Assembly: GCA_946482365.1 (NCBI GenBank)
Contig: CAMLQY010000005.1
Span: 1-64,000 of the forward strand
From: an uncultured Actinomycetes bacterium
Lineage (GTDB): Bacteria > Actinomycetota > Thermoleophilia > Solirubrobacterales > 70-9
DNA length: 64,000 nucleotides
Reading direction: 5' to 3'
The notes beneath the pieces are model-generated. The model worked only from the letters and a program-made list of their open reading frames with translations, was not told the DNA's origin and searched no databases. Position numbers and translations under genes: made by a program. Positions 21,818-42,652 of this stretch are shown here, in pieces (position 1 is the first letter of the stretch; the number at the start of each line of letters is the position of its first letter).

Positions 21818-22402
21818 ATGGGCTCTGTAGCGACAACTGACCAATCGCAGTCTTCGACGGCTGCGCGAGCATCAACGCTCAGCTACGTTGCGTGGACGCC
21901 CGCTGGAGAACTCGACGCCCGCGAGTGGGCGACGGCTGGGCGCCGTATTGGTGCAGTAGGTCGAAATATTCAGTGGCTTCTCGGTGACTGGATTGCCTAT
22001 GGCAATCAGAAGTTCGGTGAGCGGTATGCCAGAGCGTCAAAGATCACCGGGTACGACACCCAGACCCTGATGAACATGGTTTATGTAGCTTCACGTTTTG
22101 AAATCTCCCGACGTCGGGAGGATCTCTCATGGAGCCACCACGAGACGCTGGCGTCTCTGGAGCCCGACGAGCAAGACCGCTGGCTTGATCAAGCTATTGC
22201 TGATAGGTGGGCTGTTTCTGATCTGCGAATGATGTTGCGCGTAGCGCGTAAGGGCGATAGCGCAGGAGCAAGCGAAGAGGAGAAAGCTGAAACTCAAGAA
22301 CCCGGCTCGAGCGGAGGCAGGCGCCAGCTCTCTCGACAGCCGCTTGCAGTGATGTGTCCTCATTGCGGTGAGGAGGTGCCGCTGCACGCTGCTAGTAGTT
22401 AG
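21818..22402 (+). CDS. LmbU-like transcriptional regulator
   Basis: 194 aa. The pattern W-x-x-AGRRIG...IQWLLGDWIAYG...YARASKITGYDTQTLMN, then ASRFEISRRREDLSWSHHE and a WLDQAIADRW helix, matches the LmbU family, founded by the lincomycin-cluster activator. A C-terminal tail with CPHCGEEVPL adds a single CxxC knuckle, enough for metal binding only if paired with another chain. It is the first gene of the metabolite cluster and its best candidate pathway-specific activator. Confidence 0.75.
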   Translation: MGSVATTDQSQSSTAARASTLSYVAWTPAGELDAREWATAGRRIGAVGRNIQWLLGDWIAYGNQKFGERYARASKITGYDTQTLMNMVYVASRFEISRRREDLSWSHHETLASLEPDEQDRWLDQAIADRWAVSDLRMMLRVARKGDSAGASEEEKAETQEPGSSGGRRQLSRQPLAVMCPHCGEEVPLHAASS

Positions 22403-22609
22403 AAAGACCTTGCGGGTTGGCTGTAGATCTCATGAAACGCCATCGGATTCGACGGCCACGATCAGGTGTCAGCGGTAACACTCGGTTCACGGCGGGGCCG
22501 AGACAGACTGTTGCTGGCCCTGCTCACGTTGAGTATCTATTGGCAGCGCCAGAGGGCAGGGCGGTATAAGTGCTTGACCGCATTGCCGGGCTGTCGAGAG
22601 AGGTTCGCC

Positions 22610-23734
22610 TTGAAATTCCTAGTTGAAGATCGACGCACCCTTGAGGAGTTTCTGCCAGGCTTCGACGCGGAGATTGCATCGATTCCGTTGGCCGAAATGG
22701 AGGCGCGGGACAGCCATGTCATCGAGCTGTTCCGGGACGCAGGAGGCGCGGGCCTGGTCATTCCCCATGACTTCAAGGGTCACGGTGCCTCACCATCAGC
22801 TGCGATCCGGGTCCAGCGTGCGATCGGTTCGCGCTCACCGTCTCTGGCGGTGGCAACGACGATGCATCATTTCTCGACTGCAAGCCTGATCGAACTTCAG
22901 AGGGCCGACAGCGGCTTCGAGTGGCTACTGTTGCAGGCGATCGCCGAACAGGGCCGGCTGCTCGCTTCCGGATTCGCGGAGGGTGTCCACGGCCAGGGAG
23001 TCTTTTCACCGACGATGCGGGCCAGGTGGGTCGATGGGAAGTTCTTAGTCAGCGGTACGAAGAGGCCGTGCAGCCTGTCGCGGTCGATGGACGTACTGAC
23101 GGCGTCCGTGGCAGTTATCGGCGAGGCGCCCGACGCGGAGCCGGAGTTCGCCATCGCCCTTGTGCCCGCCGGCGCACCGGGTCTGGAGGTCTCCGATTTC
23201 TGGGGATCTTCCGTCCTTGCCGGTGCCCAGAGCGAGGCGGTGACTCTGAGTGACGTCCCTGTGGATCCCGACCTGGTGGTTGGGGTCGACAACGTCGACG
23301 CAGTGCAAACCGCGAGCTTCCTGTGGTTCGAGCTCTTGATCACGGCGTCCTACATCGGCATGGCCAGCTCGCTTGTCGAGCGGGTGATCGCAGCAGAGCG
23401 TGGAGATCCCGCGCTTCGTACCGCGATGGTGGCCGACCTCGAGTCGGCGATGGCCAGCCTCGCCGCGGTCGCGTATCGGATGGAGGAGGGGGACCGCAGC
23501 GAATCACTCCTGGTGCAGTTGTTGCTCTACCGCTACTCGGCCCAGGACGCGATCAGTCGCTCGGTGACCTCGGCCGTCGAGCAGCTCGGCGGCATGGCGT
23601 TCATCGGCGGGGAAGACGTCTCCTACTTCGCATCGGCCTCGCGGGCACTCGCCTTTCACCCCCCGCAACGCCAGGGCGCTGGCTCGGACGCGATTCTCGC
23701 CGCGCTCGCCGGCGCGCCGCTGAAGATCGACTGA
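22610..23734 (+). CDS. Acyl-CoA-dehydrogenase-fold flavoprotein lacking the catalytic glutamate motif
   Basis: 374 aa from TTG at 22610, which follows GAGAGAGG; an upstream GTG at 22466 would add a non-homologous leader. The N-terminus (FRDAGGAGLVIPHDFKGHG) and the flavin-region GFAEG.../VSGTKRPCS segments follow the ACAD fold. The C-terminal YEGTxxI motif of true dehydrogenases is absent; it reads FHPPQRQGAGSDAILAAL. This places it with cluster-associated ACAD-like enzymes, which include N- or C-oxygenases and carrier-bound substrate oxidases. The exact reaction is unknown. Confidence 0.75.
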   Translation: MKFLVEDRRTLEEFLPGFDAEIASIPLAEMEARDSHVIELFRDAGGAGLVIPHDFKGHGASPSAAIRVQRAIGSRSPSLAVATTMHHFSTASLIELQRADSGFEWLLLQAIAEQGRLLASGFAEGVHGQGVFSPTMRARWVDGKFLVSGTKRPCSLSRSMDVLTASVAVIGEAPDAEPEFAIALVPAGAPGLEVSDFWGSSVLAGAQSEAVTLSDVPVDPDLVVGVDNVDAVQTASFLWFELLITASYIGMASSLVERVIAAERGDPALRTAMVADLESAMASLAAVAYRMEEGDRSESLLVQLLLYRYSAQDAISRSVTSAVEQLGGMAFIGGEDVSYFASASRALAFHPPQRQGAGSDAILAALAGAPLKID

Positions 23735-23878: not shown

Positions 23879-24961
23879 ATGACCGAACGCCGCCGCGAGC
23901 TAGGCCTGCAGATAGAGGAATTTTATGGCGTCACCCTGGAGCAGGTGCTCGGAGAAATCGAGTACCTGCGAGACGCCGGGGACACCGTGATCGCGGGGGG
24001 ATCGCTCGCCTACGGGCTCGGAAACGGCCGCAGCGACCTCGACATCGTCGTCACCGGCCCCACCACGGTCGAGTCTTCCCGGGTTCCTCTGGAGCACTTT
24101 CTCGGATCGCTGCGGGTCGATGTCTGGAAGCTGTCTCAGGAGCTGATCGAAGCTTCCTTTCGGCGCGCCGAAAAGGCGCTCGCCAGCGAGGAAGAAGTTC
24201 TGGGCGACTTTGGCGACATCGACAACGAGGACGGGTTCAAGCTCCTCCACCGGATCGCCTTCGGCCTCGTCATCGACGGCCGCGAGCTTCAGTTCGAGGC
24301 GCTGGATTGCCGGGAGGTGGCGTCCGGCCTCGTCACGCGGGAGTACGCAGAGCGGATGCGCGCTTCGGCGCTGACGGCCCAGCTGACCCTGCGCGCGAGC
24401 CGGTCGATCGCCGCCGTCTTCAACGCCCGGCTTGCGGTTGAGAGCGCCCTTAACATTGCGGTCCTACGGCGCGGCTTTCCGTTCTGCAGCGAGAAGTGGT
24501 TGGGCGAGCGGCTCGATGCCGAGCTGCCTGAGCTCGCCAGCCTCTACGAGCCCTTCCGGCGACTGCCGGCGGACCCGGCTCGCGACGGCGCGGGGTTCGT
24601 CGAGGCTGCGCTCAGGGTCTGCACGGAGATGTGGGGCCTCGAGCTCGAGTTCGAGGCCCTCGCCGAGCTGGCTCGCTGGCACAACGCCGAGGACATTCGG
24701 CTGGTGGAGATCGGTGCCGACCGTTTCCTGCTGGCGCCGCGCTCCGGAGCCCTCTGGGAGTTCGACGAGAGCGACACCAATGTGTGGCGCCGGCTAACGG
24801 CGGAGACCGGCGAGCAGGATGACGGTTGGGGGCCCGCCGACTGCGATCCGGAGGGGCTGACGTTGTGCGTGCGCTTGTACGAGCACGGACTGCTGGGCCT
24901 CAGGTGGACCGAAGGCGTGCCGATCGGAATGCTCGATGCCGAGCGGAGGGTGCGGGTATGA
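23879..24961 (+). CDS. Nucleotidyltransferase-fold protein with PqqD-like C-terminus
   Basis: 360 aa from ATG at 23879 (start not certain; a TTG at 23843 is in frame). GGSLAYGLGNGRSDLDIVV is the GSxxxG...SDxD signature of the pol-beta nucleotidyltransferase superfamily, near residue 40. Residues ~270-330 (VEIGADRFLLAP, GALWEFDESDTNVWRRL) resemble a PqqD-type peptide-binding module. The combination suggests NMP transfer to a peptide or amino substrate, which is inference. The stop overlaps the next gene as ATGA, so the two proteins are made together. Confidence 0.65.
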   Translation: MTERRRELGLQIEEFYGVTLEQVLGEIEYLRDAGDTVIAGGSLAYGLGNGRSDLDIVVTGPTTVESSRVPLEHFLGSLRVDVWKLSQELIEASFRRAEKALASEEEVLGDFGDIDNEDGFKLLHRIAFGLVIDGRELQFEALDCREVASGLVTREYAERMRASALTAQLTLRASRSIAAVFNARLAVESALNIAVLRRGFPFCSEKWLGERLDAELPELASLYEPFRRLPADPARDGAGFVEAALRVCTEMWGLELEFEALAELARWHNAEDIRLVEIGADRFLLAPRSGALWEFDESDTNVWRRLTAETGEQDDGWGPADCDPEGLTLCVRLYEHGLLGLRWTEGVPIGMLDAERRVRV

Positions 24962-25458
24962 AGGTGGTTGAGGCCGACGCGCGCCGCTATGCCTGGTGCA
25001 GAAGTCACGCCCTCTGGATCGTCGGCACGACGACCCGCAGCTTTCTCGAGGACGCTCATGGAGCGAAGCAGGCCGACCAGGGGGCCCTACTTCGCTTCGT
25101 CGCGCGGATGATCGGAGAGACCTGCGCCGTCGCCCTCAACGTCGCGCTCAACCGTGACCGACCGATTCCGAGTCCCGCCATGCGCTGCTCCTGGGCTCTG
25201 GAGCGGCTTGAAGGACATAAGCTCTGGCAGTCCTGTTGGGAGCTGATCCGGGGCATCGAAGACGTTCCAGCAGAAGAGATCGTCGAACGTTGCGAGTTGT
25301 TGGTGACGGAGGTGAGTGCCGTGGTCGGGGAGATGCCTAACCCGATCACTCCGGAGGGTCACCTGCCGGCGATCGCGCTGGCACGAGACTGGATCAAGCT
25401 GATGGACGCGGTCGGCGAGGAGCCGCCGGTGCCGTACGACTGGACCCTGCCGACCTGA
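24958..25458 (+). CDS. Hypothetical helical partner of the nucleotidyltransferase
   Basis: 166 aa. All-helical prediction with several Cys and Trp; blocks such as GAKQADQGALLRFVARMIGETC and WQSCWELIRGIEDVP. I do not recognise the family. An ATGA overlap with the upstream nucleotidyltransferase implies a stoichiometric partner. MNT/HEPN toxin-antitoxin pairs have a similar two-gene layout, but the conserved HEPN RxxxxH motif at the right place is not evident. Confidence 0.6.
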   Translation: MKVVEADARRYAWCRSHALWIVGTTTRSFLEDAHGAKQADQGALLRFVARMIGETCAVALNVALNRDRPIPSPAMRCSWALERLEGHKLWQSCWELIRGIEDVPAEEIVERCELLVTEVSAVVGEMPNPITPEGHLPAIALARDWIKLMDAVGEEPPVPYDWTLPT

Positions 25459-25539: not shown

Positions 25540-26247
25540 TCATGCAGATCGGAACCGCTCCAGGTCTGAATCGAATTGCTCTTGCGCGGCCAAGCTGAGT
25601 GGGTGCTCTGCCATATCTCGAAGCACGTCTAGCGGAGCGGAGATCGCGCAACTTCCCTGTTCGAGCGCCTCGATGGCCTGCGCCGGAGACTTGATGCTTG
25701 CTGCAAGGATTCTTGGTGAATTATCTAGTGGATCCAGTGCGTCGGCAAGCGCTCTGACCGTCGTGGCAGACCCCGATCCGTGCCTGGCGGCACGGTCGAC
25801 ATAGGGGATGACCCAGTCATACCCCGCCTCGTGCGCGACCAGAGCTTGAGCCGGTGAGAAGACAGCCGTCATCGCAGTCTGAATGCCCTCGTCGTGCAAG
25901 CTCCTCGCGACAGGCAGGAAGCATCTCCTGGCCAGGAGCTTGACCACGACACGCTTTGGCTCGTGTTCGGCGAGCTTCCGTGCTTGCCGGAGGACCTCGT
26001 CAGGATCGGAGGAGAACGGCTGTACGAACACGAGGCCTGGCGCGAGCTCTATCAGCGCCCTGGCATGCGTCAGCAGCACTGGGGTGTCGTGATCGGCTCC
26101 AGTCTCCAGTCCGCGAGCGATCAGGCTTGGATTCGTGGTGAGGCTGTCGACAAGACAATCGCCCACTGCTGCGCGGACATCGGAAAGAGATCCCGAATCG
26201 AGCAGTAGAGCTGGTTCACGATTGGCCTCAAAATCGGGTGCGCTCAT
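25540..26247 (-). CDS. Transaldolase/fructose-6-phosphate-aldolase-like protein
   Basis: 235 aa from ATG at 26247, preceded by AAGGAG. The class I aldolase (alpha/beta)8 family is visible: LLLDSGSLSDV with Asp17, LTTNPSLIA, the Schiff-base lysine Lys103 in RVVVKLL, and EGIQTAMTAVFSPAQAL with DWVIPYVDRA. It should be able to cleave or form dihydroxyacetone/aldose adducts like TalC/FSA or the LmbR transaldolase of lincosamide pathways. It is divergent from the aldehyde dehydrogenase operon and sits in a cluster rich in C-C bond enzymes. Confidence 0.75.
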   Translation of the reverse strand: MSAPDFEANREPALLLDSGSLSDVRAAVGDCLVDSLTTNPSLIARGLETGADHDTPVLLTHARALIELAPGLVFVQPFSSDPDEVLRQARKLAEHEPKRVVVKLLARRCFLPVARSLHDEGIQTAMTAVFSPAQALVAHEAGYDWVIPYVDRAARHGSGSATTVRALADALDPLDNSPRILAASIKSPAQAIEALEQGSCAISAPLDVLRDMAEHPLSLAAQEQFDSDLERFRSA

Positions 26248-26479
26248 CAGCGATCTCCTTACCCACCAAGTTGGACTAATCCCCACATGTGCCTACTCGA
26301 GTGAAGGCTAGAGGAGGCAGGGCGTCCCCAAAAAGAGGCGCCCGCCTGGAAGGTGCGACCCGTCACCGATCCTCTCTTGCCACCAGTTGGTTTCGCTTTT
26401 TGACCGGGATGTCGCCGGCTTGTAGAACTGGCGACGGACGACATGATTCTGCATCGAGCCCACACTGAGGCGGCAAGAG
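26248..26479. promoter_or_regulatory. Divergent control region of the ThDP/aldolase cluster
   Basis: 232 nt between the transaldolase-like gene (minus) and the acylating aldehyde dehydrogenase gene (plus), likely holding both promoters. AAGGAG at 26255-26260 (minus) is the ribosome-binding site of the transaldolase-like gene. I see no clear operator. Confidence 0.4.
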
Positions 26480-27391
26480 GTGTCTGATGTAAAAGCTCCC
26501 CTCAGGGCTGCTGTGCTCGGGAGCGGCAACATCGCCGCTGATCTAGTGGCCAAGCTCCAGAGAACCCCGAATGTCGATTGCTGTCTTGTTGCGGGGCGCC
26601 GAAACGGGTCACATGGCCTGGACTTCGCACACAGATTGGGATTGAAGACCTCCACGTCGGGATTGGCAGCTGTACTCGAGGAACCAGACGCGTTCGATGT
26701 GGTCTTCGACACGACTTCGGCGGATGCAGCCAAAGCTAGCTGGCCAGAGTTGCGCAACGCAGGACTTAGAGCCATCGACCTGACGCCCTCGAAGCAGGGT
26801 GTGATGTGCGTGCCGGCCCTAAACATCGGTGATACTAGGACGAGTCAGAACGTCAACCTCGTAACCTGTGGCGGGCAGGCGACGCTGCCGTTTATTTTCG
26901 ACATTGCAGCTCACAGTGCAATCTCGTATCTGGAGGTTGTTACGACCAACGCTTCGCGGAGTCTAGGTCCCGCGAGTCGCGAGTACGTAGATGAATACGT
27001 CGCCACCACTGAAGCAGCGATAAGCGAGTTTTCCGGAGTTGACGCTGTCAAGGCGATCCACATCGTCAACCCCGCCGAACCGCCGCAGGTGATGCAAAAC
27101 ACGGTTTTCGCTGAGGTTTCGACCTGCGATCTCGGCGCGATTGCTCAGGCGGTCGCCGAGCGGACCCGGCGCGTGAAGTCCTATATCCCTGGGTTTGAGA
27201 TTGCTGTCGGCCCGGTTATAGATGGCGACCGTCTTTTGCTTACGAGTCGGGTTGCGGGAGCTGGGGACTATCTGCCGACTTACGCAGGCAATCTAGACAT
27301 TATTACCTGCGCTGCTGTAGCGGTCGCCGAGTTTTGGGCCAACGCGGGGGTATTCTCTGGTTCTAGGGCGAAGGCTGAAGTTTCGGCATGA
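26480..27391 (+). CDS. mhpF: Acetaldehyde dehydrogenase (acylating), MhpF/DmpF type
   Basis: 303 aa, GTG start with GGCAAGAGG just upstream. It interconverts short aldehydes and acyl-CoA with NAD. GSGNIAADL is the dinucleotide turn, the catalytic cysteine is in NLVTCGGQATLP, and IVNPAEPP with the QNTVFAEV block is typical of DmpF/BphJ. In the meta-cleavage pathway it forms a channelling complex with the aldolase; the next gene overlaps it by ATGA, so that complex is expected here too. Confidence 0.88.
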   Translation: MSDVKAPLRAAVLGSGNIAADLVAKLQRTPNVDCCLVAGRRNGSHGLDFAHRLGLKTSTSGLAAVLEEPDAFDVVFDTTSADAAKASWPELRNAGLRAIDLTPSKQGVMCVPALNIGDTRTSQNVNLVTCGGQATLPFIFDIAAHSAISYLEVVTTNASRSLGPASREYVDEYVATTEAAISEFSGVDAVKAIHIVNPAEPPQVMQNTVFAEVSTCDLGAIAQAVAERTRRVKSYIPGFEIAVGPVIDGDRLLLTSRVAGAGDYLPTYAGNLDIITCAAVAVAEFWANAGVFSGSRAKAEVSA

Positions 27392-28404
27392 AAGCGAACT
27401 CTCCCGTCCAGCTACTCGACACGTCTCTTCGGGACGGGAACCACGCCGTCGGTCACAGCATCTCGTGCGATCAGATACGGCGCTATGCCCAAGCTGCCGA
27501 CGCTGCCGGTATCGACATGATCGAGTGCGGCCACGGTAACGGACTCGGAGCCTCATCTCTGCAAGTAGGGCGCGCTAGGGAGACGGATCCCGAGATGCTC
27601 GCCGCAGCTCGTGAGGCGGTGACCCGCGGGAGGCTGGTCACCTTGGCGTTGGCTGGGTTTGCGACGCGTAAGCGCGACATCGCGCCGGCTCTGGCGTTGG
27701 GCGTCGACGTCGTGCGGCTGGGTGCCCACTGCACCGAGGCGGATGTCGCGGTTCCGCACATCGACTTCGTGCGGTCTCATGACTGCGAAGCCCACGGAGT
27801 TCTGATGATGGCCCATTACGCACCGGCCGAGTTCCTCTGTGAGCAGGCTCGCCTCTTGGCCGACGCAGGCGCGCAGGCGATCATCGTCATGGATTCGGCC
27901 GGAACGCTTACTCCGGGCTCCGTAGCGGATCGGATAGCTGCGCTGAGCAACATGATCGAAGTTCCGATTGGCTTTCATGCACACAACAATCTCCACCTCG
28001 CCGTCGCCAACGCGGTCGCAGCAGTGTCCGCTGGCGCGACCATCCTCGACGGATCTGCTCGCGGCTTCGGTGCGGGCGCCGGCAACGCCCCGATCGAGGT
28101 CCTCGTCACGGCGATGGACCATCTCGGCATCCCGTGGAACGGCGATACTTACGGAGTCCTCGACGCTGCCGAGTGCGCAGAGGAGCACCTCGTTCCATCG
28201 GTGCCTCACACTGATTCCCTGACCATCCTCAGCGGTTTGTCCGCTGTCTTCTCGGGATTTGTTCCGCACGTCAGACGTGCCGCAACTTGTTACTCGGTCG
28301 ATCCACGGGACATTCTCGTAGAGCTCGGACGGCGGCGAGTAGTCGCCGGGCAGGAGGACGTCGTGGTTGATGTGGCACTGGCCTTGGCCGGAGAATCCAC
28401 TTGA
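27388..28404 (+). CDS. mhpE: 4-hydroxy-2-oxovalerate aldolase, MhpE/DmpG type
   Basis: 338 aa. It reversibly cleaves 4-hydroxy-2-oxoacids to pyruvate and an aldehyde. DTSLRDGNHAVGH carries the LRDG arginine and the catalytic histidine; GFHAHNNLHLAVAN supplies metal-binding histidines; ARGFGAGAGNAP closes the barrel. The length matches DmpG/BphI, including the C-terminal communication domain that receives the dehydrogenase. No ring-cleavage genes lie nearby, so the aldol direction (pyruvate plus aldehyde) in a biosynthetic pathway is as likely as catabolism. Confidence 0.88.
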   Translation: MKANSPVQLLDTSLRDGNHAVGHSISCDQIRRYAQAADAAGIDMIECGHGNGLGASSLQVGRARETDPEMLAAAREAVTRGRLVTLALAGFATRKRDIAPALALGVDVVRLGAHCTEADVAVPHIDFVRSHDCEAHGVLMMAHYAPAEFLCEQARLLADAGAQAIIVMDSAGTLTPGSVADRIAALSNMIEVPIGFHAHNNLHLAVANAVAAVSAGATILDGSARGFGAGAGNAPIEVLVTAMDHLGIPWNGDTYGVLDAAECAEEHLVPSVPHTDSLTILSGLSAVFSGFVPHVRRAATCYSVDPRDILVELGRRRVVAGQEDVVVDVALALAGEST

Positions 28405-28421
28405 TGAGGAGGTGTTGAGCA

Positions 28422-30464
28422 GTGGCAATTAGCGGCATTCCCGATCATGCTCTCCAAGAGGCAATGGCCCTGAACGATGCTTCTGATCGAGTCCGGAAAG
28501 CGCTCGAATGGCGTGGCCGGCCAGACGGATTGGCAGTGGCCTCTGTCAAGTTGCTCGGCAGTTCTGACCTCGCTCATGCGCTTGCGGGCGACTCGCTTGA
28601 CGCCGGCGAGTGCGAACTCGCAATAGACGGATACCTGAAGGAAGTCGGAGATATCCAGCTGACCGGCGCAGATGTTGTAGCGTTGGTGTCACGCTGCCAT
28701 GGCATCGATGTGGCGTTCGCGTACGGGGGCACCTCCGAGCTCGTGCTTTGCGATCGGCTGTCGCGGGTCGGAAACCTCAACCTGGTGAATAGTCGTGGCG
28801 ACAAGGAGGCCGCATTCTTTGCCGCCGGCGCATCGCTGCTTAGGCCGTGGCGTGCCCTGGCGGTGATCCACGGAGCTCGTGGTCTCACCAACGCCTGTGG
28901 AGCTATTGCGGACGCCCGCAGAAGCGAGTTGGCGACGGTATGCATGGTGGGATTGCCGTCGACGGGCTCCGCTCCGTTTCTTCCTCCCCACGGTGAGGAT
29001 GGCCTGCTGGGAGCCATCTCGCATTTCACCAAGGGCTGGTGGCAAGCCCCTCCGGTGAGCGACGATCCAGCCGAGCGCCGGAGCCAAGCGATCACCTTTG
29101 TGCAGTCCCTTCAGTCCGCTTTTGCCGACGCTTCGACGCACCCCCACGGGCCCCGCCTGTTCGGAATACCCCAGGACGTCGCCGAGGCTCCGTGGCTGGA
29201 GCTGGAGGCCGTCGCCGAGACGCTCGACATCGCGCCGTCACCGCCTCGACGGGAACCGGACCCCGATGCCGTCGCGGCTGCAGCGACGCTGATCAGGGGG
29301 GCGGCCAGTCCGGTGGTCATGATCGACGACTACGCCCTTCGCTATCCGGCCATTCGCCCCCTCTTGGCGAGTCTCGCGGATATAGCCGACGCTCCTGTGC
29401 TCCAGCTGAGGTACACGCGTGGCCCAATGATGCACGAGCGCCTGTCGTCGCACGACGTGCCTCGATTCCTCGGTTGGTATGACGCCGGGCGGCCTGAGCA
29501 CGTTGCTGCGATGGAAGGCGCAGACCTTCTTATCACCGTCGAGGATCGCAACATGTACCCGCGCGTCGTCGGCCCGCTCCCGCCGTGTCGAAAGTTGGCT
29601 CTCACTGCGGACCTGTCTAAGGTCGAAAAGAACAAGTACCTCACCGCTGACGACCTCGCGGTCGAGGGTGATGTGGACCTTGTGCTCAGCGAGATCCTGG
29701 GCCAGCTCGGGTCACCCCACGTCCCTGGCGGTGCGCCCGTCTATGGAGATGAGAGCTCGTCGGAGCGTGCCGTAGCGATCGACCTGGGGATGGTCGACGG
29801 TGAGGACATAGCTCGCACGGTGCGGAGGAGAATCGGCCAAGCCATCGGCGAGGCGCTCGATCTGCATCGAACTCCAGTGCTCGTAGATGACAGCTCGATG
29901 TTCGGCGGGCTGATGTCCGACGAGTACGACTCCCTGCCAACCCGTACGCGCGTTCTCGGTGCTCACGGCGGCTTCATAGGGTCGTCGCTGCCGCTCGCCG
30001 CGGGGCTGGCCTTCGGCGACCCCGAGGCCAGCGTGCTGTGTTTCACGGGAGACCAGGGGTTTACGAATAGCTGCCAGGCATTGGTCGCGGCCGGAGAGTG
30101 CGGGGTGGGGCCGGTTTGCGTCGTGGCCAACAACGGAGAGGCGGTTTCGCTGCTGAAGCAGGGCACCGCACAGGACCCGACACTCTTCGACTACCAGGGA
30201 TATCCCCACCTACGCAACGGCGGTGCCTTTTCCTATACGGGCGTCGCGAAGAACATGGGAGTTGACTGCACGACGATCGATCTCTCTGACCTCAGCTCGC
30301 CGGAGAAGGTTGATGGGGAACTCCGCAGGTTCAAGCACCAACTGGTCACAGGTTTGCGGGACACCGCGCCCCGGATGATCGAGCTACGTCTTCCCGGGCT
30401 GTCCGACTTCTGGTCGGGAATATGGGAGGTGGGGGGCCGTGAAGCCGTACGAGTCCCCGCCTGA
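28422..30464 (+). CDS. ThDP-dependent enzyme, acetolactate-synthase/2-oxoacid-decarboxylase-like, with extra N-terminal domain
   Basis: 680 aa; GTG start after GAGGAGG. The ThDP site is intact: Glu129 in SRGDKEAAFFAAG and the cofactor motif GDQ(543-545)-x24-NN(570-571). The central domain (~270-440) resembles the dimer-interface domain of the POX/ALS family. About 80 residues before the first ThDP domain are additional and helical; I find no match for them. ALS-family enzymes decarboxylate a 2-oxoacid and can ligate the remaining acyl anion to an aldehyde or ketone. With a pyruvate aldolase upstream and a DXS-like gene overlapping downstream, carboligation of a C3-C5 oxoacid is plausible. Substrate unknown. 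Confidence 0.78.
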   Translation: MAISGIPDHALQEAMALNDASDRVRKALEWRGRPDGLAVASVKLLGSSDLAHALAGDSLDAGECELAIDGYLKEVGDIQLTGADVVALVSRCHGIDVAFAYGGTSELVLCDRLSRVGNLNLVNSRGDKEAAFFAAGASLLRPWRALAVIHGARGLTNACGAIADARRSELATVCMVGLPSTGSAPFLPPHGEDGLLGAISHFTKGWWQAPPVSDDPAERRSQAITFVQSLQSAFADASTHPHGPRLFGIPQDVAEAPWLELEAVAETLDIAPSPPRREPDPDAVAAAATLIRGAASPVVMIDDYALRYPAIRPLLASLADIADAPVLQLRYTRGPMMHERLSSHDVPRFLGWYDAGRPEHVAAMEGADLLITVEDRNMYPRVVGPLPPCRKLALTADLSKVEKNKYLTADDLAVEGDVDLVLSEILGQLGSPHVPGGAPVYGDESSSERAVAIDLGMVDGEDIARTVRRRIGQAIGEALDLHRTPVLVDDSSMFGGLMSDEYDSLPTRTRVLGAHGGFIGSSLPLAAGLAFGDPEASVLCFTGDQGFTNSCQALVAAGECGVGPVCVVANNGEAVSLLKQGTAQDPTLFDYQGYPHLRNGGAFSYTGVAKNMGVDCTTIDLSDLSSPEKVDGELRRFKHQLVTGLRDTAPRMIELRLPGLSDFWSGIWEVGGREAVRVPA

Positions 30465-32337
30465 GCTCCTCGCGCATGAGGGTCCGGTGCTCCGCCGCAC
30501 GCGAGACCTGGCTGCCCTCAAGGCTCTGTCGTTGCCCGAGACGCGTGAGCTCGCTGACGAGCTCCGGCAGTATCTGATTGCGCTGACCGGCATCACCGGC
30601 GGCCATCTCGGGGTGAATCTCGGAGCGGTGGAGCTCAATCTCGCCGCGTATCGCGTGTTTGACTCACCCGACGACGTCCTCATCTGGGCAGGCCATGAGA
30701 CCTATTGCCAGAAGCTCTTCACCGGACGGCGAGGCCAGATCGCCACGCTACGTCAGCCCGGGGGCCTGTCTGGATTCACGGAGCCGCGAGAGTCAGAGCA
30801 CGACTGGACGTGTAACACTCACGTTTCGATCGGCCTGAGCTATGGCGCCGGCGCCGCACATGCGCGCGACTGCACCGGCGACGACCACCATGTTGTGGTG
30901 TGTTGCGGGGACGGCGCCCTGACCGGCGGCATGGCCCTCGAGGCTCTGGTCAATATCGGCTACAGGGGCACGCGAGTCGTTATCTTGCTCAACGATAACG
31001 GCCGCTCTTACGCGCCGACCACGAGTCGTCTGAGCCTGCAGATCAACGAGTTGGCCGGCGACCCTACCTATGTGGCTGCCACCACCGGCGGCAGTCGTGA
31101 CGCCTGCCGAACCGCAGCCTCCGGTTCGCTTGCGCCGGCCGCACGAGTCCTCGGAGACAAGGACCAAGTCGATGTCGCGACTTTCTTCGAAACTCTGGGG
31201 ATTCGCTATCTCGACGTCGTCGACGGCCATGATGTCGCGGCGCTCGAATCCAGCTTGCGGGAAGCCATGGAGGTGGATGGGCCTGTAGTGGTCCACGCTC
31301 TCACCGAGAAGGGGCATGGATACGAACCGGCACGGGCCGATGATGAGAAGAGGTTCCATGACGTGAAGCCGACCAACGGTAAGGACGCGCCGGCACAGGC
31401 GAAGATGGCCTTCACGGACGTCTTCGGATCCGAGCTGATGGCAATTGCACGCGACGACCCCAGAGTTCATGCCATCGTCGCAGCCATGCCGGGCTCCACC
31501 GGCCTTTTGCCGTTCGCGCGTGAGTTCCCCCGGCGGTTCGTGGACGCCGGGATCGCCGAGCAGCACGCCGTGGGGCTCGCGGCGGGGATGGCCATGAGGG
31601 GCCTGCGACCGTTCGTCGCGATCTTCTCGACTTTCCTGATGCGCGCCTTCGATCAGATCAATCTCGATGTCGGACTGCTCGAACTACCGGTCGTCTTTTG
31701 CGTCGACCGGGCTGGTATCACGGGCTCGGATGGCCCGAGTCACCAGGGTGTGCTCGATGTGTCTCTGGCGACCAGAGTGCCGGGCATGACGGTCTTCGCG
31801 CCATCGTCGGCGCTCGAGCTACGTGCGATGATGCGAACGGCGCAGACGCTGACTGGACCTTCGATGATTCGGTTCCCGAAAGCGGTGGCCCCGCAGGGGT
31901 CGGACGCTGAAGTCGGAGTCGGACTCCATGCACGGCAGGCATATGCGACGGGGAACGACGTCGCCATCATCGCTACGGGCAGGCTTTTGGGGCCAGCCCT
32001 TCAGGCAGGGCGCGATCTGGCGGAGGAAGGAATCGGCGTCGCCGTGTGGGACGCTCGATTGGTTGCGCCGCTGGATGTCGAGATGATCGAGGCTGCGGCC
32101 AGTGCCTCTCTCGTCGTCACCGTCGAGGACGGGATGGTTCCAGGGGGCCTTGAATCGGAGGTCGTCCATGCGCTTCGTTCCTGCTGGCAACATGGCCGTC
32201 CCCGCGTTGTGGGACTTGGAACCCCTCGGGCATGGATTCCACAGGGCAAGCCAGAGACGATCCTTGCCGAACTCGGCTTGGATGCCGCCGGCATCGCCTC
32301 CTCAATCAAGGCCGCCCTCCAGACGGCGACCGTCTAG
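30439..32337 (+). CDS. Divergent 1-deoxy-D-xylulose-5-phosphate-synthase-like ThDP enzyme
   Basis: 632 aa, full DXS length. The ThDP motif GDGALTGG...NDN (157-187), GGHLG (His56), GHETYCQK (His86), the HGYEPARAD segment and GIAEQHAV (Glu374) are conserved, so it should bind ThDP and catalyse a decarboxylating or transketolase-like ligation. Several DXS-specific positions differ: the GHSSTS block reads NTHVSIG, and the conserved histidine after RAFDQ is replaced (INLDV). No terpene genes are near, so a precursor-supply role is unlikely; a changed acceptor is more plausible. The start overlaps the previous gene by 26 nt. Confidence 0.75.
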   Translation: MKPYESPPELLAHEGPVLRRTRDLAALKALSLPETRELADELRQYLIALTGITGGHLGVNLGAVELNLAAYRVFDSPDDVLIWAGHETYCQKLFTGRRGQIATLRQPGGLSGFTEPRESEHDWTCNTHVSIGLSYGAGAAHARDCTGDDHHVVVCCGDGALTGGMALEALVNIGYRGTRVVILLNDNGRSYAPTTSRLSLQINELAGDPTYVAATTGGSRDACRTAASGSLAPAARVLGDKDQVDVATFFETLGIRYLDVVDGHDVAALESSLREAMEVDGPVVVHALTEKGHGYEPARADDEKRFHDVKPTNGKDAPAQAKMAFTDVFGSELMAIARDDPRVHAIVAAMPGSTGLLPFAREFPRRFVDAGIAEQHAVGLAAGMAMRGLRPFVAIFSTFLMRAFDQINLDVGLLELPVVFCVDRAGITGSDGPSHQGVLDVSLATRVPGMTVFAPSSALELRAMMRTAQTLTGPSMIRFPKAVAPQGSDAEVGVGLHARQAYATGNDVAIIATGRLLGPALQAGRDLAEEGIGVAVWDARLVAPLDVEMIEAAASASLVVTVEDGMVPGGLESEVVHALRSCWQHGRPRVVGLGTPRAWIPQGKPETILAELGLDAAGIASSIKAALQTATV

Positions 32338-32373
32338 ATGTCTTGGGTATGCCTCTACATCTGGGCCGAGCGC

Positions 32374-32856
32374 TCAAAGCGGTCGTACCGTCACCTCGGA
32401 ATCACCAAGCATCTGGGCCAGCAGCAATCCCCGCGCTTCGCAGTGAAGAGGCAAAGCCGTTCCCATCGCCTCCTTGATTGTGTCGGCGCTCCTTCCGTTC
32501 GAACCGCGACACACAGTCAGGTGGATACGCCAGTGCTCGTCGAGTTCATCTACGACGCTCACGGCGTCGAGGATACTGGCTCGCCATTGCATCAGCGCAC
32601 TGTCCTCGTCGGGGAACAAGCAGATCGCGTCCCCGAGGGTGCCAACCGAGGCCAAGTTGTACTGGGTCCCACGGATCGCGATGCTCAGCCGACTGAGTGT
32701 CGGCAGGGGGAGAGGCACAGACAGCGTCCAAGGGCCCGCGATGGTCATGTGCGCCGGAATGCCGTGGGCACTGGACCAGTCGCCGACCTGCCGAAACGGT
32801 TTGACCAGCGTTTCGGCCTCTGCCACAGGCATCAGGATCGATTGGAACTGGGGCAT
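32374..32856 (-). CDS. 2H phosphoesterase / 2'-5' RNA-ligase-like protein
   Basis: 160 aa on the strand opposite to its neighbours. Two H-x-T motifs, AHMTIAG (residue ~36) and IHLTVCR (residue ~111), define the 2H phosphoesterase superfamily, which cleaves 2',3'-cyclic phosphates or related diesters. The length fits single-domain LigT/YjcG-like proteins. It is convergent with the DXS-like gene and divergent from the hydratase gene (38-nt gap). A role on a cyclic phosphate intermediate is possible but not shown. Confidence 0.75.
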   Translation of the reverse strand: MPQFQSILMPVAEAETLVKPFRQVGDWSSAHGIPAHMTIAGPWTLSVPLPLPTLSRLSIAIRGTQYNLASVGTLGDAICLFPDEDSALMQWRASILDAVSVVDELDEHWRIHLTVCRGSNGRSADTIKEAMGTALPLHCEARGLLLAQMLGDSEVTVRPL

Positions 32857-32894
32857 CGCTCAGGTAACTCGATGTTACTGCCGGACCACGCGAG

Positions 32895-33698
32895 TTGACG
32901 AAGATGCCCTGCTCGCCTGAGCCGACCCCTGCCCACACTAGAGGGACCGATCACCTAGCAGCCGAACTGCTCGAAGCAGCGCGGTCTGCTCAGCCGATCC
33001 AGCCTCTGAGAACGCGCTTTCCCACGCTAACCATCGCGGACGCCTACGAAATCCAAAAGGCCATTCGCGAAGCGAGGATCCAGGACGGCGAGGCGGTAGT
33101 GGGACAAAAGATCGGGCTGACGAGCGTTGCCATGCAGAGGCAACTCGGTATCCGGCAGCCGGACTTCGGCTTCATTACGGATCGAATGCTCATGCAGTCC
33201 CCCGCGGTGCTTTCACGGCAACAGCTGATCAACCCGATGATTGAGGCAGAGATCGCATTCTTCTTCGACGAGGCGCTTCCGGCCGACATCTCGGCTTCCG
33301 AAGTGATGAGTCGCTGCTCGGCCATCGCGCCGGCGCTCGAGGTCATCGACAGTCGCATCGCCGAGTGGGACATAGGGATCGTCGACACGATCGCTGACAA
33401 TGCTTCATGTGGGGCTGTGGCTTTGGGCGATCCGTGCGAGCCCCCGGAGCGCCTCGAATCGTGCGAGATGACGCTTCGGGTCGCCGATGTCTCTGCGACG
33501 GGGTCGGGCTCCGCCGTGCTCGGCCATCCTGTCCGGCCGATCGCTTGGCTGGTCCGAACGCTGGCCGCTCTCGGTGAGCAGGTTGGACCAGGAATCGTGA
33601 TCTCGGGCGCCTGGACGCGGGCGCTTCCAATCGATGCCGGATCGGGCGCCGATGCAGTCTTCGAGAATGTCGGCGCGGTATCGCTGGAGGTCCGTTGA
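32895..33698 (+). CDS. mhpD: 2-oxopent-4-enoate hydratase family protein (MhpD-like)
   Basis: 267 aa from TTG at 32895; an ATG at 32904 is an equal alternative. The family hydrates 2-hydroxypenta-2,4-dienoate to 4-hydroxy-2-oxovalerate, the substrate of the aldolase encoded at 27388. Signatures are VGQKIGLTS, PDFGFITDRM, the metal-binding MIEAEIAF glutamates, and the C-terminal GIVISGAW...ENVGAVSLEV. 4-Oxalocrotonate decarboxylase is a close relative and cannot be excluded. Hydratase, aldolase and dehydrogenase together reproduce the mhpDEF set but are split by other cluster genes. Confidence 0.82.
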   Translation: MTKMPCSPEPTPAHTRGTDHLAAELLEAARSAQPIQPLRTRFPTLTIADAYEIQKAIREARIQDGEAVVGQKIGLTSVAMQRQLGIRQPDFGFITDRMLMQSPAVLSRQQLINPMIEAEIAFFFDEALPADISASEVMSRCSAIAPALEVIDSRIAEWDIGIVDTIADNASCGAVALGDPCEPPERLESCEMTLRVADVSATGSGSAVLGHPVRPIAWLVRTLAALGEQVGPGIVISGAWTRALPIDAGSGADAVFENVGAVSLEVR

Positions 33699-35065
33699 AC
33701 TCGGTCATCGACCCGAGCATCTTCACGCTGTGCGACGTACGGGCCGATGACAACAGGCTCGACGAGGCCACTGCGCGAGCTCTTGGTACCGCGTTCGCCC
33801 TCCGTCTGCGCTCGGACAGCGGAGCCGTCGTTGTCGGCCGCGATGCACGGGCGGGTTCGGCCGCCCTCTCCGCCGCCGTCATCGATGGTCTCGTCTTCGG
33901 CGGCGCGAACGTCTGCGATATCGGTCTCGCGCCCACGGAGGTAGCGCACTGGTTCGCCATGCAGAATGACTGGCCCGGGGCGATCTCGGTGACCGCCTCG
34001 CACTGGCCGCCGGAGTTCCTCGGCCTGAAGTTCCTGCTTCCCGAAGGACAGGTGCTTCACGGAGTTGCCCTTTCCGCCCTCGCTCATCCCCCAGAAGGAG
34101 TCGACGTAGGTCGCGGCACCGTGGCGAGATGCTCGGTGGTCGACGAGTACGTGTCGTTTCTGACGTCACTCCATGCGCCCGTTGACCTTCGTGGAACCAG
34201 CGTCCTTGCCGACGCCGCCTGCGGAGCGATGAGCCGATATGCGGACGCGCTTTTCGCTGAGCTGGGAGTCGCTGTCGTCCGGCGCTGCTGGGGCCTCGGC
34301 GATGACAGCAAGGAGGCTTACATCGCGGATCCAGCAACGCCCGAGAGTCGCACCGAGATGTCTGCGGCAGTCCTCCGGAGCGATGTAGACATCGGAATTG
34401 CTTGGGACGGGGACGGCGATCGCTGCATAGTCACCGACAACGAAGGCCAGTCGATCGTCTCAGCGCATCTGGGTGCATTGCTCGCGATCGATGAGCTCCG
34501 CCGCGCGTCTCAGCGGGTCATTGTCCACGATGTCACCTTCGGTCCCTCGCTGACAGTGCCGGCACGAGACCTCGGCGCCCAGGTGGTCGTCACGGCTGTG
34601 GGGAATCCCTTTATGAAGTCTGCGATTCGCCGCAACTCCGCCTGTTATGCCGCAGAGGCTTCCGGTCACCACTACTTTCGCGCGCTGGGTGGAATCGACT
34701 CGGGACTCCTTTGCGCGGCGAAGGTGCTTTTGGCGTGCGCTCGCGCTCAGGTGAGCATCGCCGATCTGGTGCGGCCGTTCCGTGAGAAGTATTTCGTCGC
34801 CGAGCAGGAGACGGTGAAGACCGCCGATCCCCCAGCGGCGCTACACCGGGCCCGTACCGTGCTGGGCGAGCCGTCGAGTGAACTCGACGGATTGAGCTAC
34901 ACGACTGACAACTCTTATCTCACCCTGCGTGCTTCGTTGTCGGGAGGCGCCGTCCGAGTGCATGCCGAGTCCACGTTGGGGCAAGACCACCTCGAGACGC
35001 TCAGAGATCGAGCCTGCCGTTCACTCGATCCAACTGGGTCGGCAGCTTTGCGTGGTCAGCGATGA
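33695..35065 (+). CDS. Phosphoglucomutase/phosphomannomutase family protein
   Basis: 456 aa; TTG start at 33695 with GGAGG six bases upstream, overlapping the hydratase stop. All four active-site loops are recognisable: phosphoserine Ser102 in VTASHWPP, magnesium loop DGDGDR (238-243), sugar loop AEASGHHYF, and a C-terminal TTDNSY...RVHAEST phosphate loop. It should move phosphate between the C1 and C6/C5 hydroxyls of a sugar. The phosphoserine loop lacks the usual NP after TASH, and the sugar loop has EASGH rather than EESGH, suggesting a non-standard sugar. Confidence 0.8.
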   Translation: MNSVIDPSIFTLCDVRADDNRLDEATARALGTAFALRLRSDSGAVVVGRDARAGSAALSAAVIDGLVFGGANVCDIGLAPTEVAHWFAMQNDWPGAISVTASHWPPEFLGLKFLLPEGQVLHGVALSALAHPPEGVDVGRGTVARCSVVDEYVSFLTSLHAPVDLRGTSVLADAACGAMSRYADALFAELGVAVVRRCWGLGDDSKEAYIADPATPESRTEMSAAVLRSDVDIGIAWDGDGDRCIVTDNEGQSIVSAHLGALLAIDELRRASQRVIVHDVTFGPSLTVPARDLGAQVVVTAVGNPFMKSAIRRNSACYAAEASGHHYFRALGGIDSGLLCAAKVLLACARAQVSIADLVRPFREKYFVAEQETVKTADPPAALHRARTVLGEPSSELDGLSYTTDNSYLTLRASLSGGAVRVHAESTLGQDHLETLRDRACRSLDPTGSAALRGQR

Positions 35066-35934
35066 TCGCCTCTGCCCTTCAAAGCGTTCTCGACGAGCGA
35101 GACAGTCTCGAGAGGTATGAACGGGACACGTATTTCCTAGAGGCCATCGCTGACTGGCCCGAGCACGAGGAGCCAGCGTCGCTTGCCCTACTGCTGGTCA
35201 AGCCAGAGGCGTTTGTTGGCGGCCGGCTCGAGGCAATTCTGGACTTCCTCGCCGAGAATCACTTCACCACTTTGGCGTGGCGGGAGGTCACGTTCACGCG
35301 CCATCTGTGCCGCGCCCTGTGGCTGCACGAGTGGTGGCATGCCAGCCTGACCCGGATGGTCCTGGTTGAAGCGCTGATGCAGGCGGGGCCGAGCGTCGTC
35401 TTGATTCTCGAAGACGCCGATGCGGCCATGAACCACAGCGGTTCGAGTCGCCTACAGGCGCTCAAGGGCCCGACCATCCCGTCACATCGCCGATCTCACC
35501 AGCTCCGCGCCCGACTCGACTCGCCGAGCATGATGCTCAACTTCGTGCACACAGCGGACGGAAGCGCCGAGCTGCTTCGTGAGGTCGCTGTGCTGTTCGC
35601 TGCCGATGAGCGCCCCGAACTGTTCTCCGACATAGCTCTCGGACGGAAACTGGGCCGGAACGCGGTCGAGGCCCCGCTTCGCAAGGAGTTTGGTGCAGAC
35701 GCTTGGGCGCACCGGCGGCATGATCTCGCCTATCGACCTGCGGCGGAACGCGTGCTGCGGAGCGGAGTTGGCCAAGAGCTTCCAGACCTCGATGACGTCC
35801 TACTCCGAACGCCCCCAGAGTACTTTCCGCTCAGTGATCTAGAGCCGCTTCGGGCTGCTGTGACGGACGAGGCAAGTCAGTGGGACTGGCTCATCGTTGC
35901 GACGACAATCGCATCGCTGCGAGAGTCGGACTGA
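35062..35934 (+). CDS. Nucleoside-diphosphate-kinase-like protein with C-terminal extension
   Basis: 290 aa, ATGA overlap with the mutase gene. Residues ~40-185 follow the NDPK fold: LLLVKPEAF with Lys47, an ALKGPTIP segment, and NFVHTAD with His163 at the phosphohistidine position, then a LLREVAVLF helix in place of the usual SA..E...FF. About 100 extra residues follow. If active it would phosphorylate an NDP or a phosphorylated small molecule through a phosphohistidine. Pairing with a phosphohexomutase points to a sugar-phosphate or nucleotide intermediate. It is the last gene of the plus-strand run. Confidence 0.68.
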   Translation: MIASALQSVLDERDSLERYERDTYFLEAIADWPEHEEPASLALLLVKPEAFVGGRLEAILDFLAENHFTTLAWREVTFTRHLCRALWLHEWWHASLTRMVLVEALMQAGPSVVLILEDADAAMNHSGSSRLQALKGPTIPSHRRSHQLRARLDSPSMMLNFVHTADGSAELLREVAVLFAADERPELFSDIALGRKLGRNAVEAPLRKEFGADAWAHRRHDLAYRPAAERVLRSGVGQELPDLDDVLLRTPPEYFPLSDLEPLRAAVTDEASQWDWLIVATTIASLRESD

Positions 35935-37322: not shown

Positions 37323-37758
37323 TGGCGACCGAGCGCTCGAGTCCGCGCAGCATCTCCGCGCAGTTCTCTTCCAGCGACCTCTGCGCCACCGGATTCAGCA
37401 TCTCGGCCAGCATCGGGATCCCGATCTCGAAATTGAGCTCGAAGTGAGCGCGGGTCTCGTTCGGGCTGAGTTCTTCGAGTGTCCAGTAGCCGTCGAAGAA
37501 CTCGAGGTCGCCGCGCAGCTGCTTGAAAACGACTTTGTGGGCGTCGTGGTCGAGCTGCTCTTCCTCTTCCCACTCGAGGATTGAACCCTTCAGCAGCACG
37601 GACCATTCGACGCGGCGGGTGTGCTCGTCGTCGGGTCCGACCAGCCGGGCCCAGCGCACGTTTTCCATTGACTCCTCGTAGCTTTCGACGTCCAGCACCG
37701 AATCCCAGACGCGCTCGATCGGCGCGCGGATGTCCTGGTCGATGTTCACTCTTGGCAT
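37315..37758 (-). CDS. SRPBCC (polyketide cyclase / START-like) protein
   Basis: 147 aa from the ATG at 37758. The helix-grip fold is indicated by an N-terminal strand (NIDQDIRAPIERVWDSVLDVESYEE) with the RVWD helix, alternating strands and a long C-terminal helix (NPVAQRSLEENCAEMLRGLE). Such proteins bind hydrophobic ligands and some cyclise polyketides. It lies between the reductase and aminotransferase genes of the operon and may hold or shape the acyl intermediate. Confidence 0.78.
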   Translation of the reverse strand: MPRVNIDQDIRAPIERVWDSVLDVESYEESMENVRWARLVGPDDEHTRRVEWSVLLKGSILEWEEEEQLDHDAHKVVFKQLRGDLEFFDGYWTLEELSPNETRAHFELNFEIGIPMLAEMLNPVAQRSLEENCAEMLRGLERSVASD

Positions 37759-37765
37759 GGTTCGG

Positions 37766-38830: not shown

Positions 38831-39099
38831 CCGAGTAGCGCCCGGGCGGCCTGAGCTTCCTTGGCAATGCGTTCGAGGTCGGCGACCCGTTCGATTCCAA
38901 TCAGCGCCTGCTCCTCTAGCGGCGGTAGGCCGAGTCTGGCCTCGATCACAACCAGCAGCTCGACGAGGCCGAGGGAGTCGAAGCCGAGCTCGGCGACCAG
39001 CGTGGTCTCGGGCGTCACCTCCGTGACCCCGAGCGGCGACATCTCCACGATCACCTCGCGGACCGCAGCCACGGCGCCTGCCTCGGGGTCCGAGTTCAC
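38827..39099 (-). CDS. Acyl carrier protein
   Basis: 90 aa from GTG at 39099, preceded by AAGGAG. The phosphopantetheine site is GFDSLGLVEL, followed by a helix II/III pattern (VVIEARLGLPPLEEQ). It overlaps the reductase gene. It likely receives the acyl chain from the acyl-AMP ligase of the same operon and is activated by the phosphopantetheinyl transferase encoded at 43568. Confidence 0.9.
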   Translation of the reverse strand: MNSDPEAGAVAAVREVIVEMSPLGVTEVTPETTLVAELGFDSLGLVELLVVIEARLGLPPLEEQALIGIERVADLERIAKEAQAARALLG

Positions 39100-39160
39100 G
39101 GCTCCTTGATAACAGCCGCGCGCCGGAATTCCGAAAACTGCGGCGGGGATGCGAGCACGC

Positions 39161-42512: not shown

Positions 42513-42652
42513 CGCGCCTGCCCCCCGGCGGTTGTTTGCGCTGGGGACTTCACCGTAGGCGCGCGCGCGAAGTCAAAACGCCGGCGCCGTCAGGCGTGGA
42601 TTTGAACGTGGGCCGGGGTCACCGTACCGTCGGCCAGGGAGATACCGGAGAG
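42513..42652. promoter_or_regulatory. Divergent promoter region of the PKS cluster
   Basis: 140 nt separate the acyl-AMP ligase gene (minus) and hydrolase gene (plus). Both seven-gene and three-gene transcripts must begin near here. GGAGAG directly precedes the ATG at 42653. No obvious sigma-factor box is visible. Confidence 0.4.

Follow-up and report, generated by a model that had tools for sequence, protein, structure and literature searches.

A gene cluster joining MhpF, MhpE and MhpD with thiamine diphosphate-dependent enzymes in an uncultured Actinomycetes bacterium, probably for the construction of an unusual branched or chain-extended sugar

The first 64 kb (positions 1 to 64,000, referred to below as the window) of contig CAMLQY010000005.1 of an uncultured Actinomycetes bacterium, a contig of about 75.5 kb, contain at 25540–35934 a set of genes in which the hydratase, aldolase and acylating dehydrogenase of the lower meta-cleavage pathway (MhpD, MhpE and MhpF) stand among thiamine diphosphate (ThDP)-dependent carboligases and sugar-phosphate enzymes. 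The window consists of high-GC DNA with a lower-GC block at 12–36 kb (0.59–0.66 in 2-kb steps), and the gene set forms the right end of this block. Our analysis indicated that the set is an operon with a probably biosynthetic role, the assembly of an unusual branched or chain-extended sugar, and not a degradative one. An earlier reading made from the letters alone (the sequence-only reading) had named nine gene families here. All nine were found by Pfam, NCBIfam and structure searches, and Pfam and NCBIfam backed each identity as follows (scores in bits):

25540..26286, minus strand: transaldolase (TAL)/fructose-6-phosphate-aldolase-like protein of the small TalC/FSA type (PF00923, TAL_FSA, 85, cut-off 27; TIGR00875 120, under its cut-off of 246)
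26480..27391, plus strand: MhpF, acylating acetaldehyde dehydrogenase (TIGR03215 319.8, over the cut-off of 282; AcetDehyd-dimer 138)
27388..28404, plus strand: MhpE/DmpG, 4-hydroxy-2-oxopentanoate aldolase with the DmpG communication domain (TIGR03217 357.5, over 286; HMGL-like 147; DmpG_comm, PF07836, 82)
28422..30464, plus strand: ThDP-dependent carboligase/decarboxylase-like enzyme with an N-terminal helical extension, about residues 1–77 (ThDP N and C domains over the cut-off, M domain under it)
30439..32337, plus strand: DXS-family enzyme (TIGR00204 507.8, over 465.95; DXP_synthase_N 248)
32374..32856, minus strand: 2H (LigT-like) phosphoesterase between the DXS gene and mhpD (PF13563 30.9, over 27; two HxT motifs)
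32904..33698, plus strand: divergent MhpD-family hydratase (TIGR03220 207, under the cut-off of 408.8)
33695..35065, plus strand: divergent phosphohexomutase-family enzyme (PGM) with an altered C-terminal loop (PF02878/79/80, domains I–III)
35062..35934, plus strand: NDPK-fold protein extended by about 110 residues at its C-terminus, with a candidate catalytic His163 (PF00334, NDK, 41, over 27)

The genes are closely packed. The mhpF and mhpE genes overlap by 4 bases, 17 bases separate mhpE from the ThDP gene, the ThDP and DXS genes overlap by 26 bases, and there are 4-base overlaps at mhpD/PGM and at PGM/NDPK. The TAL gene lies on the opposite strand, divergent from mhpF, and the 2H gene, also on the opposite strand, occupies the interval between the DXS gene and mhpD. 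The GC content at third codon positions (GC3) is 0.71–0.75 from mhpE through NDPK and 0.56–0.66 in the LmbU, MhpF, TAL and PucR genes (mhpF 0.62, TAL 0.64). The tight overlaps and gaps, together with the even GC3 from mhpE to NDPK, show that the association of these genes is beyond chance.

Four of the encoded proteins are C–C bond enzymes, namely TAL, MhpE, the large ThDP enzyme and DXS. The sequence-only reading had counted five, but a redox enzyme (MhpF) and a hydratase (MhpD) do not belong in this group. The MhpD, MhpE and MhpF of the lower pathway are all present, the last two over their curated cut-offs and MhpD under its own; MhpD had no Pfam match at E ≤ 0.001, and its top solved relatives were 2-keto-4-pentenoate hydratases (E 6e-47). 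MhpE forms 4-hydroxy-2-oxopentanoate from pyruvate and acetaldehyde. Pfam was run on a subset of 49 open reading frames (ORFs) of the 64-kb window, a few of them shadow frames, and no ring-cleavage dioxygenase family was matched among them, in agreement with the sequence-only reading.

The TAL-like protein could be aligned to solved transaldolases/FSA. The DXS protein passed the TIGR00204 equivalog cut-off, could be aligned to solved DXS and contains GDG, DRAG..DG..H and RFPK, which we take to be functional DXS motifs. PGM could be aligned to a solved phosphoglucomutase and contains TASH, DGDGDR and EASGHH, presumably the catalytic serine, metal and sugar loops; its C-terminal loop, presumably the phosphate loop, differs and reads RASLSGG. 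The best AlphaFold2 model of the NDPK-like protein (pLDDT 68.8; the other four below 50) matched NDPK chains in Foldseek with a TMt of about 0.7–0.8 over about 144 columns, and its long C-terminal tail has no confident structure. The column of His163 (context NFVHTAD) was invariant in 6 of 6 aligned rows. The model is consistent with an NDPK fold carrying a candidate active-site histidine. Besides the protein itself, about 5.8 billion proteins contained four relatives at 70–80% and one at 33%.

The membership of the large ThDP enzyme in the ThDP decarboxylase superfamily is supported by its Pfam domains, its predicted model and structural matches. The earlier description of it as ALS-like could not be kept in the sense of an acetolactate synthase: with the best curated model it reached 81.8 bits where 870 are required, and with TIGR00118 65.3 where 538 are. 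The enzyme also stayed far below the cut-off of every one of the 25 best of the 35 NCBIfam models matched. A glutamate at the presumed catalytic position, which we assume to be the catalytic residue, is conserved in 24 of 25 rows of its family, and no characterised member of this family was found. The protein search returned 313 matches including the enzyme itself; among the best 120 of these, four relatives at 74–79% were followed by matches at 50% or less.

A pattern-based genome scan gave at least 31 loci of this family (loci are designated below by L numbers). Their hosts include Streptomyces, Nonomuraea, Actinoplanes, Micromonospora, Nocardia, Actinosynnema and Svornostia, as well as a Chloroflexi bacterium, Nostoc, Ruegeria, an alphaproteobacterium, Patescibacteria and others. 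At E ≤ 1e-60, one genome among 399 from the class of Svornostia contained the family, and so did 4 of 397 genomes from the order of Actinosynnema, the starting genome being counted each time. Among the 232 genomes of the order of Svornostia, 173 had a match at E ≤ 0.001 and Svornostia alone exceeded 47 bits; the remaining weak matches are presumably ordinary ThDP enzymes. No relative was found on viral contigs, and plasmids gave no match at E ≤ 1e-20. The family is sparse, as expected for accessory metabolism.

The flanks of the 31 loci (up to 10 kb per side, several shortened by contig ends) were searched for the partner genes. A TAL-like gene was found in 13 of them using a profile built from matches in the same 31 loci. 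By tblastn alone it was found in 12 of 31, always on the same strand as the ThDP gene, and in none of 12 comparison loci, which comprised fewer bases overall and included L079, itself a locus of the ThDP family. An apparent TAL in L025 (E 2.6e-6), which would have made 14 of 31, was discounted, as it lies beside a DXS-profile match at the locus edge that was read as a transketolase. It should be noted that loose single-linkage clustering of ORFs merged antisense shadow frames, and its counts were replaced by those of the profile searches. Within the flanks searched, none of the 31 loci showed a gene for MhpF, MhpE, MhpD, PGM, NDPK, 2H or the nucleotidyltransferase.

The neighbours scanned at six loci (L001, L002, L003, L006, L014 and L018) included HAD-family proteins, a rhamnulose-1-phosphate-aldolase-like protein, a TreT-like glycosyltransferase, an aldo/keto reductase, a GH13 enzyme and CofD-family, PurN-like and radical SAM proteins; at one of the six, a DUF4915/TIGR03032 domain is fused to the ThDP enzyme. 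Judged by these family assignments, much of the neighbourhood points to sugar chemistry.

Two recurrent arrangements were also seen around this family. In the Patescibacteria loci L014, L023 and L027, the ThDP gene follows a gene of class III aminotransferase type and one for a PurN-like protein (42.7 bits in L014, cut-off 150); the family was unexpected in such small genomes. In Streptomyces and relatives (L003, L005, L009, L010, L017, L019 and L031), it occurs with glycosyltransferase-like and CofD-family proteins, scanned in L003 only. A P-loop protein near the ThDP gene of L010 was read as RapZ-like from its sequence.

The DXS gene has a counterpart in such a setting. In Svornostia abyssi (L018) the gene row is ThDP–HAD–alpha/beta hydrolase–DXS–TAL, with identities to the window proteins of 43% for ThDP, 51% for DXS and 48% for TAL. 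The window DXS was 37–42% identical to the other DXS proteins compared and grouped with the L018 DXS at 100/99 in a 10-row tree. The Svornostia genome has another, stronger DXS (743.6 bits, versus 540.5 for the clustered copy). As DXS accompanies the ThDP and TAL genes both in the window and in L018, this trio is seen at two places. Unlike the window, the L018 row has no detected Mhp, PGM or NDPK gene, and contains the HAD-family protein and the alpha/beta hydrolase instead. In addition to a strong DXS of 609 bits, Actinosynnema genome G005 has two further, divergent paralogues on contigs C18 and C28, which score 510 and 487.5 bits.

Meanwhile, the closest relatives of the window proteins were found on metagenome contigs, where a shared contig was inferred from matching size and source in protein searches made with MhpE, ThDP and NDPK. 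A contig of 21,989 bases carries relatives of all three (ThDP 79%, NDPK 80%, MhpE 86%), one of 10,767 bases ThDP (76%) and MhpE (83%), and one of 66,449 bases ThDP (75%) and NDPK (77%). Among the best 120 of 5223 MhpE matches, one near-copy at 99% and three relatives at 80–86% were followed by 58%. The sequence-only reading had named as a counter-sign that the genes might lie scattered in relatives. In the closest relatives MhpE, ThDP and NDPK share a contig, but no Mhp genes were found in the flanks of the 31 more distant loci of the ThDP family. On these grounds the full set looks younger than the ThDP–TAL association.

The MhpE gene itself was followed into other lineages. A strong match was present in 3 of 291 genomes in the class of Nostoc, and two of these three loci (L084 and L085) are cyanobacterial CDP-dideoxysugar loci. 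The gene order is RfbF–RfbG–RfbH–MhpF–MhpE–ORF–ThDP in L085, where RfbF, RfbG, RfbH, MhpF and MhpE each exceed their curated cut-offs, and RfbF–RfbG–RfbH–SDR (short-chain dehydrogenase/reductase)–ThDP–MhpF–MhpE in L084, where RfbH, MhpF and MhpE exceed theirs and RfbF and RfbG were identified by tblastn. The ThDP enzymes of both loci are below the acetolactate synthase cut-offs. These two loci may make branched sugars. In the Nostoc locus L081 (1600–5520), MhpE lies beside an SDR and an ORF like ArgS (arginyl-tRNA synthetase), both named from translations, and this is likely another biosynthetic use of MhpE.

In the order of Ruegeria, MhpE was present in 8 of 196 genomes. Four of these loci have MhpD beside MhpE–MhpF and are presumably catabolic, three are similar with MhpF and without MhpD, and one has MhpF only. 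Of the three loci lacking MhpD (L094–L096), L094 was the one read: at 8571–13112 an ATP-grasp-like ORF, MhpE, MhpF and an aminotransferase-like ORF are consecutive, the names being partly read from translations, and the row may lead to a hydroxylated amino acid or a dipeptide. Taken together, these loci indicate that MhpF–MhpE occurs both in MhpD-linked and in biosynthetic settings, including CDP-sugar loci with a ThDP enzyme. In a tree of 23 MhpE rows, 11 of them picked from the best 120 of the 5223 matches, the window MhpE and three metagenome homologues formed a clade at 100/99. As the sister of this clade is weakly placed (82/71), the tree was not used to choose between a catabolic and a biosynthetic origin.

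Upstream of the operon lie four further genes that might belong to it:

21818..22402, plus strand: LmbU-like transcriptional regulator, a possible cluster regulator, membership by position only (NF038070 118.3, cut-off 125)
22466..23734, plus strand: acyl-CoA-dehydrogenase-like protein with an uncertain start codon, doubtful cluster member (PF02770 25.1, under the cut-off of 33.3)
23879..24961, plus strand: nucleotidyltransferase-domain protein upstream of the TAL gene, doubtful member (PF01909 24.1, over 21; later ATG start chosen; GC3 0.84)
24958..25458, plus strand: protein of no assigned family, its start overlapping the nucleotidyltransferase stop, doubtful member (the longer frame has no Pfam or NCBIfam match)

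The LmbU-like regulator had been named in the sequence-only reading, and its score lies just below the cut-off. The closest solved structures of the acyl-CoA-dehydrogenase-like protein are DszC-type flavin monooxygenases (DszC, E 4e-11); its inclusion, for which position is the sole basis, is doubtful. GC3 is 0.77–0.84 in this gene, the nucleotidyltransferase gene and the adjoining ORF, 0.81–0.90 in a polyketide synthase (PKS) block to the right of the operon and 0.95–0.97 in two left-hand genes near 4–7 kb. Because GC3 differs, the PKS block (36–55 kb) is best taken as separate and the nucleotidyltransferase as a doubtful member.

We favour, at somewhat less than an even chance, the explanation that the set is a specialised-metabolite operon in which MhpF and MhpE supply 4-hydroxy-2-oxopentanoate for ThDP-dependent transfer to a keto sugar, so that a branched or chain-extended deoxy sugar is built. 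The reactions, the order of the steps and the product that we infer would be as follows. MhpF would reduce acetyl-CoA (or another acyl-CoA) to the aldehyde and pass it to MhpE, which would add pyruvate to give 4-hydroxy-2-oxopentanoate. In a step like that of ErwE in erwiniose synthesis, the large ThDP enzyme would decarboxylate this 4-hydroxy-2-oxo acid and pass the acyl anion on to a keto-sugar or ketose acceptor; optionally, MhpD might first dehydrate the donor to a 2-oxo-4-enoate. The DXS-like and TAL-like enzymes would form or rearrange the ketose-phosphate acceptor, and the phosphomutase, perhaps with the nucleotidyltransferase and the NDPK-like protein, would shift the phosphate and activate the product. 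The idea of a branched or extended sugar made from pyruvate was already part of the sequence-only reading. In general form it is supported by the gene association in relatives, by L084 and L085 and by the donor range of ErwE, and biosynthesis is likelier than catabolism; its details of five C–C bond enzymes and an ALS were not borne out.

Several observations weigh against this explanation. No Mhp genes were found in the flanks searched at the 31 distant loci, several of them shortened by contig ends, so elsewhere this family apparently functions in their absence, and no MhpE from the 66,449-base contig was present among the best 120 of 5223 matches. The GC3 of mhpF (0.62) is below that of the remaining operon genes. 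The window ThDP enzyme matched those of L084 and L085 at best with a blastp E of 7e-4 over 63 residues, and the 49 scanned ORFs matched neither a glycosyltransferase nor any RfbF- or RfbH-type family. In the MhpE tree the window clade does not join the sugar-locus MhpEs, and its nearest join, weak and with long branches, is with the clade holding the MhpD-linked loci. MhpD also fits the plain lower meta-cleavage trio, and it adjoins MhpE–MhpF in 4 of the 8 loci in the order of Ruegeria.

Part of this evidence would suit a division of labour in which the ThDP enzyme, DXS and TAL build one sugar-like fragment and MhpF–E–D separately make a short-chain unit (for example, 4-hydroxy-2-oxopentanoate or pentadienoate) that is joined later, the Mhp product not being the ThDP donor. 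We regard this as a real but minority prospect. It agrees with the ThDP family having no detectable Mhp genes in 31 of 31 distant loci, 13 of which have TAL and one DXS, and with MhpE occurring in L094 and the Nostoc locus L081, where no ThDP gene of the searched types was found. However, mhpF, mhpE, the ThDP gene and the DXS gene are contiguous, mhpE ending 17 bases short of the ThDP gene, and the sugar loci L084 and L085 group MhpF, MhpE and a ThDP gene. A catabolic remnant is improbable in our view; in that case MhpD–E–F would form the lower half of a meta-cleavage pathway with its ring-cleavage genes outside the window, and the remaining genes would be neighbours unrelated to them. In favour of a remnant, the lower-pathway enzymes are present as a full set of three, MhpD accompanies MhpE–MhpF in Ruegeria's order in the four loci mentioned, with which the MhpE tree makes its weak join, the window covers 64 of about 75.5 kb, and an alpha/beta hydrolase at 42536–43507 in the PKS block has, by a fold-level match, the fold of meta-cleavage hydrolases. 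Against this stand the lack of any ring-cleavage family among the 49 scanned ORFs, the LmbU-like regulator upstream, the interleaving of the Mhp genes with ThDP, DXS, PGM and NDPK, and the shared contigs of MhpE, ThDP and NDPK relatives elsewhere. Still less probable is a precursor-supply island in which the DXS-like enzyme boosts 1-deoxyxylulose 5-phosphate for isoprenoid, thiamine or pyridoxal synthesis. The DXS does score over its equivalog cut-off and align well to solved DXS, but no IspC–H, ThiG or PdxJ family was found among the 49 ORFs, and the protein groups with the ThDP-linked paralogue of a genome that holds another, stronger DXS.

Among described systems, the operon with its proposed donor supply by MhpF and MhpE is close to the YerE/ErwE-type branched-chain sugar pathways (yersiniose, erwiniose, caryophyllose), which use a ThDP decarboxylase-fold carboligase, as in the window. 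For ErwE, a branched-sugar enzyme, a review reports 4-hydroxy-2-oxo acids, including the product of MhpE, as donors (PMC12247030), and L084 and L085 pair MhpF and MhpE with a ThDP gene. As the window ThDP enzyme falls outside the close family of the L084 and L085 enzymes, which stood in for YerE and ErwE sequences in this YerE-like family comparison, the donor analogy is functional only. The window differs in having additional DXS, TAL, PGM, MhpD, NDPK-like and 2H genes. Of the RfbF–RfbG–RfbH set, which would provide CDP-4-keto-3,6-dideoxyglucose as the acceptor, no RfbF- or RfbH-type match was obtained among the 49 scanned ORFs; an epimerase-family reductase at 37766–38830 in the PKS block was not compared to RfbG. 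Because these acceptor genes were not found, the window would be, if the model holds, a variant and not a member of the ErwE-type branching pathways.

The lower meta-cleavage pathway shares the MhpD, MhpE and MhpF families with the window, whereas in the window they are embedded among carboligase and sugar-phosphate genes with no ring-cleavage match among the 49 scanned ORFs. An acylating aldehyde dehydrogenase and a 4-hydroxy-2-oxovalerate-aldolase homologue are also used in biosynthesis by the nikkomycin enzymes NikA and NikB, for which we know of no ThDP, DXS or TAL partner. The lincosamide clusters (lincomycin, celesticetin) resemble the window in a transaldolase (LmbR), a nucleotidyltransferase (LmbO) and an LmbU-type regulator (LmbU), but the accessible part of the source names no ThDP, DXS or Mhp enzyme for them (PMC12945683). 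The sequence-only reading knew of no described cluster with this gene set, and our searches of the open-licence literature, with most subscription journals outside their scope, likewise found none.

Other features of the window lie outside the operon. The neighbouring cluster at 36048–55072, likely separate by its GC3, encodes a class III aminotransferase, a polyketide cyclase-like protein, a reductase, an acyl carrier protein (ACP), an ABC transporter pair, a fatty acyl-AMP-ligase-like protein, an alpha/beta hydrolase, a phosphopantetheinyl transferase, a 2116-aa PKS (KS-AT-DH-ER-KR-ACP), an AT-ACP protein and an MMPL transporter. The left edge of the low-GC block (11549–17674) has tRNA Leu and tRNA Glu genes, and the block opens with two ORFs without a Pfam match and a 928-aa DUF4365 protein; this part looks like an island at a tRNA. 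At 57905–60079, in a stretch with a GC of 0.55–0.59, a 724-aa protein has a virginiamycin B lyase-type propeller (279 bits in Pfam; matches to the NCBIfam Vgb models stay below the cut-off) and InlB-like repeats. It is probably a surface protein, and we claim no resistance role for it.

The analysis draws attention to a family of ThDP carboligase-like enzymes that seems not to have been studied and often occurs together with transaldolases. A bolder possibility, which we put forward tentatively and consider rather unlikely, is that the operon stands for an undescribed class of natural products made on one sugar backbone by two ThDP carboligases together with a pyruvate aldolase and TAL; the ThDP enzyme would then represent a large, uncharacterised carboligase family for sugar extension, often partnered by TAL, to which donor supply by MhpF–E–D was newly added in this lineage. 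If the favoured explanation is true, the operon would provide a route to carbon-branched or extended sugars. MhpF–MhpE would serve as a donor-making module for ThDP-dependent sugar branching, so that MhpD–E–F genes need not imply the degradation of aromatic compounds.

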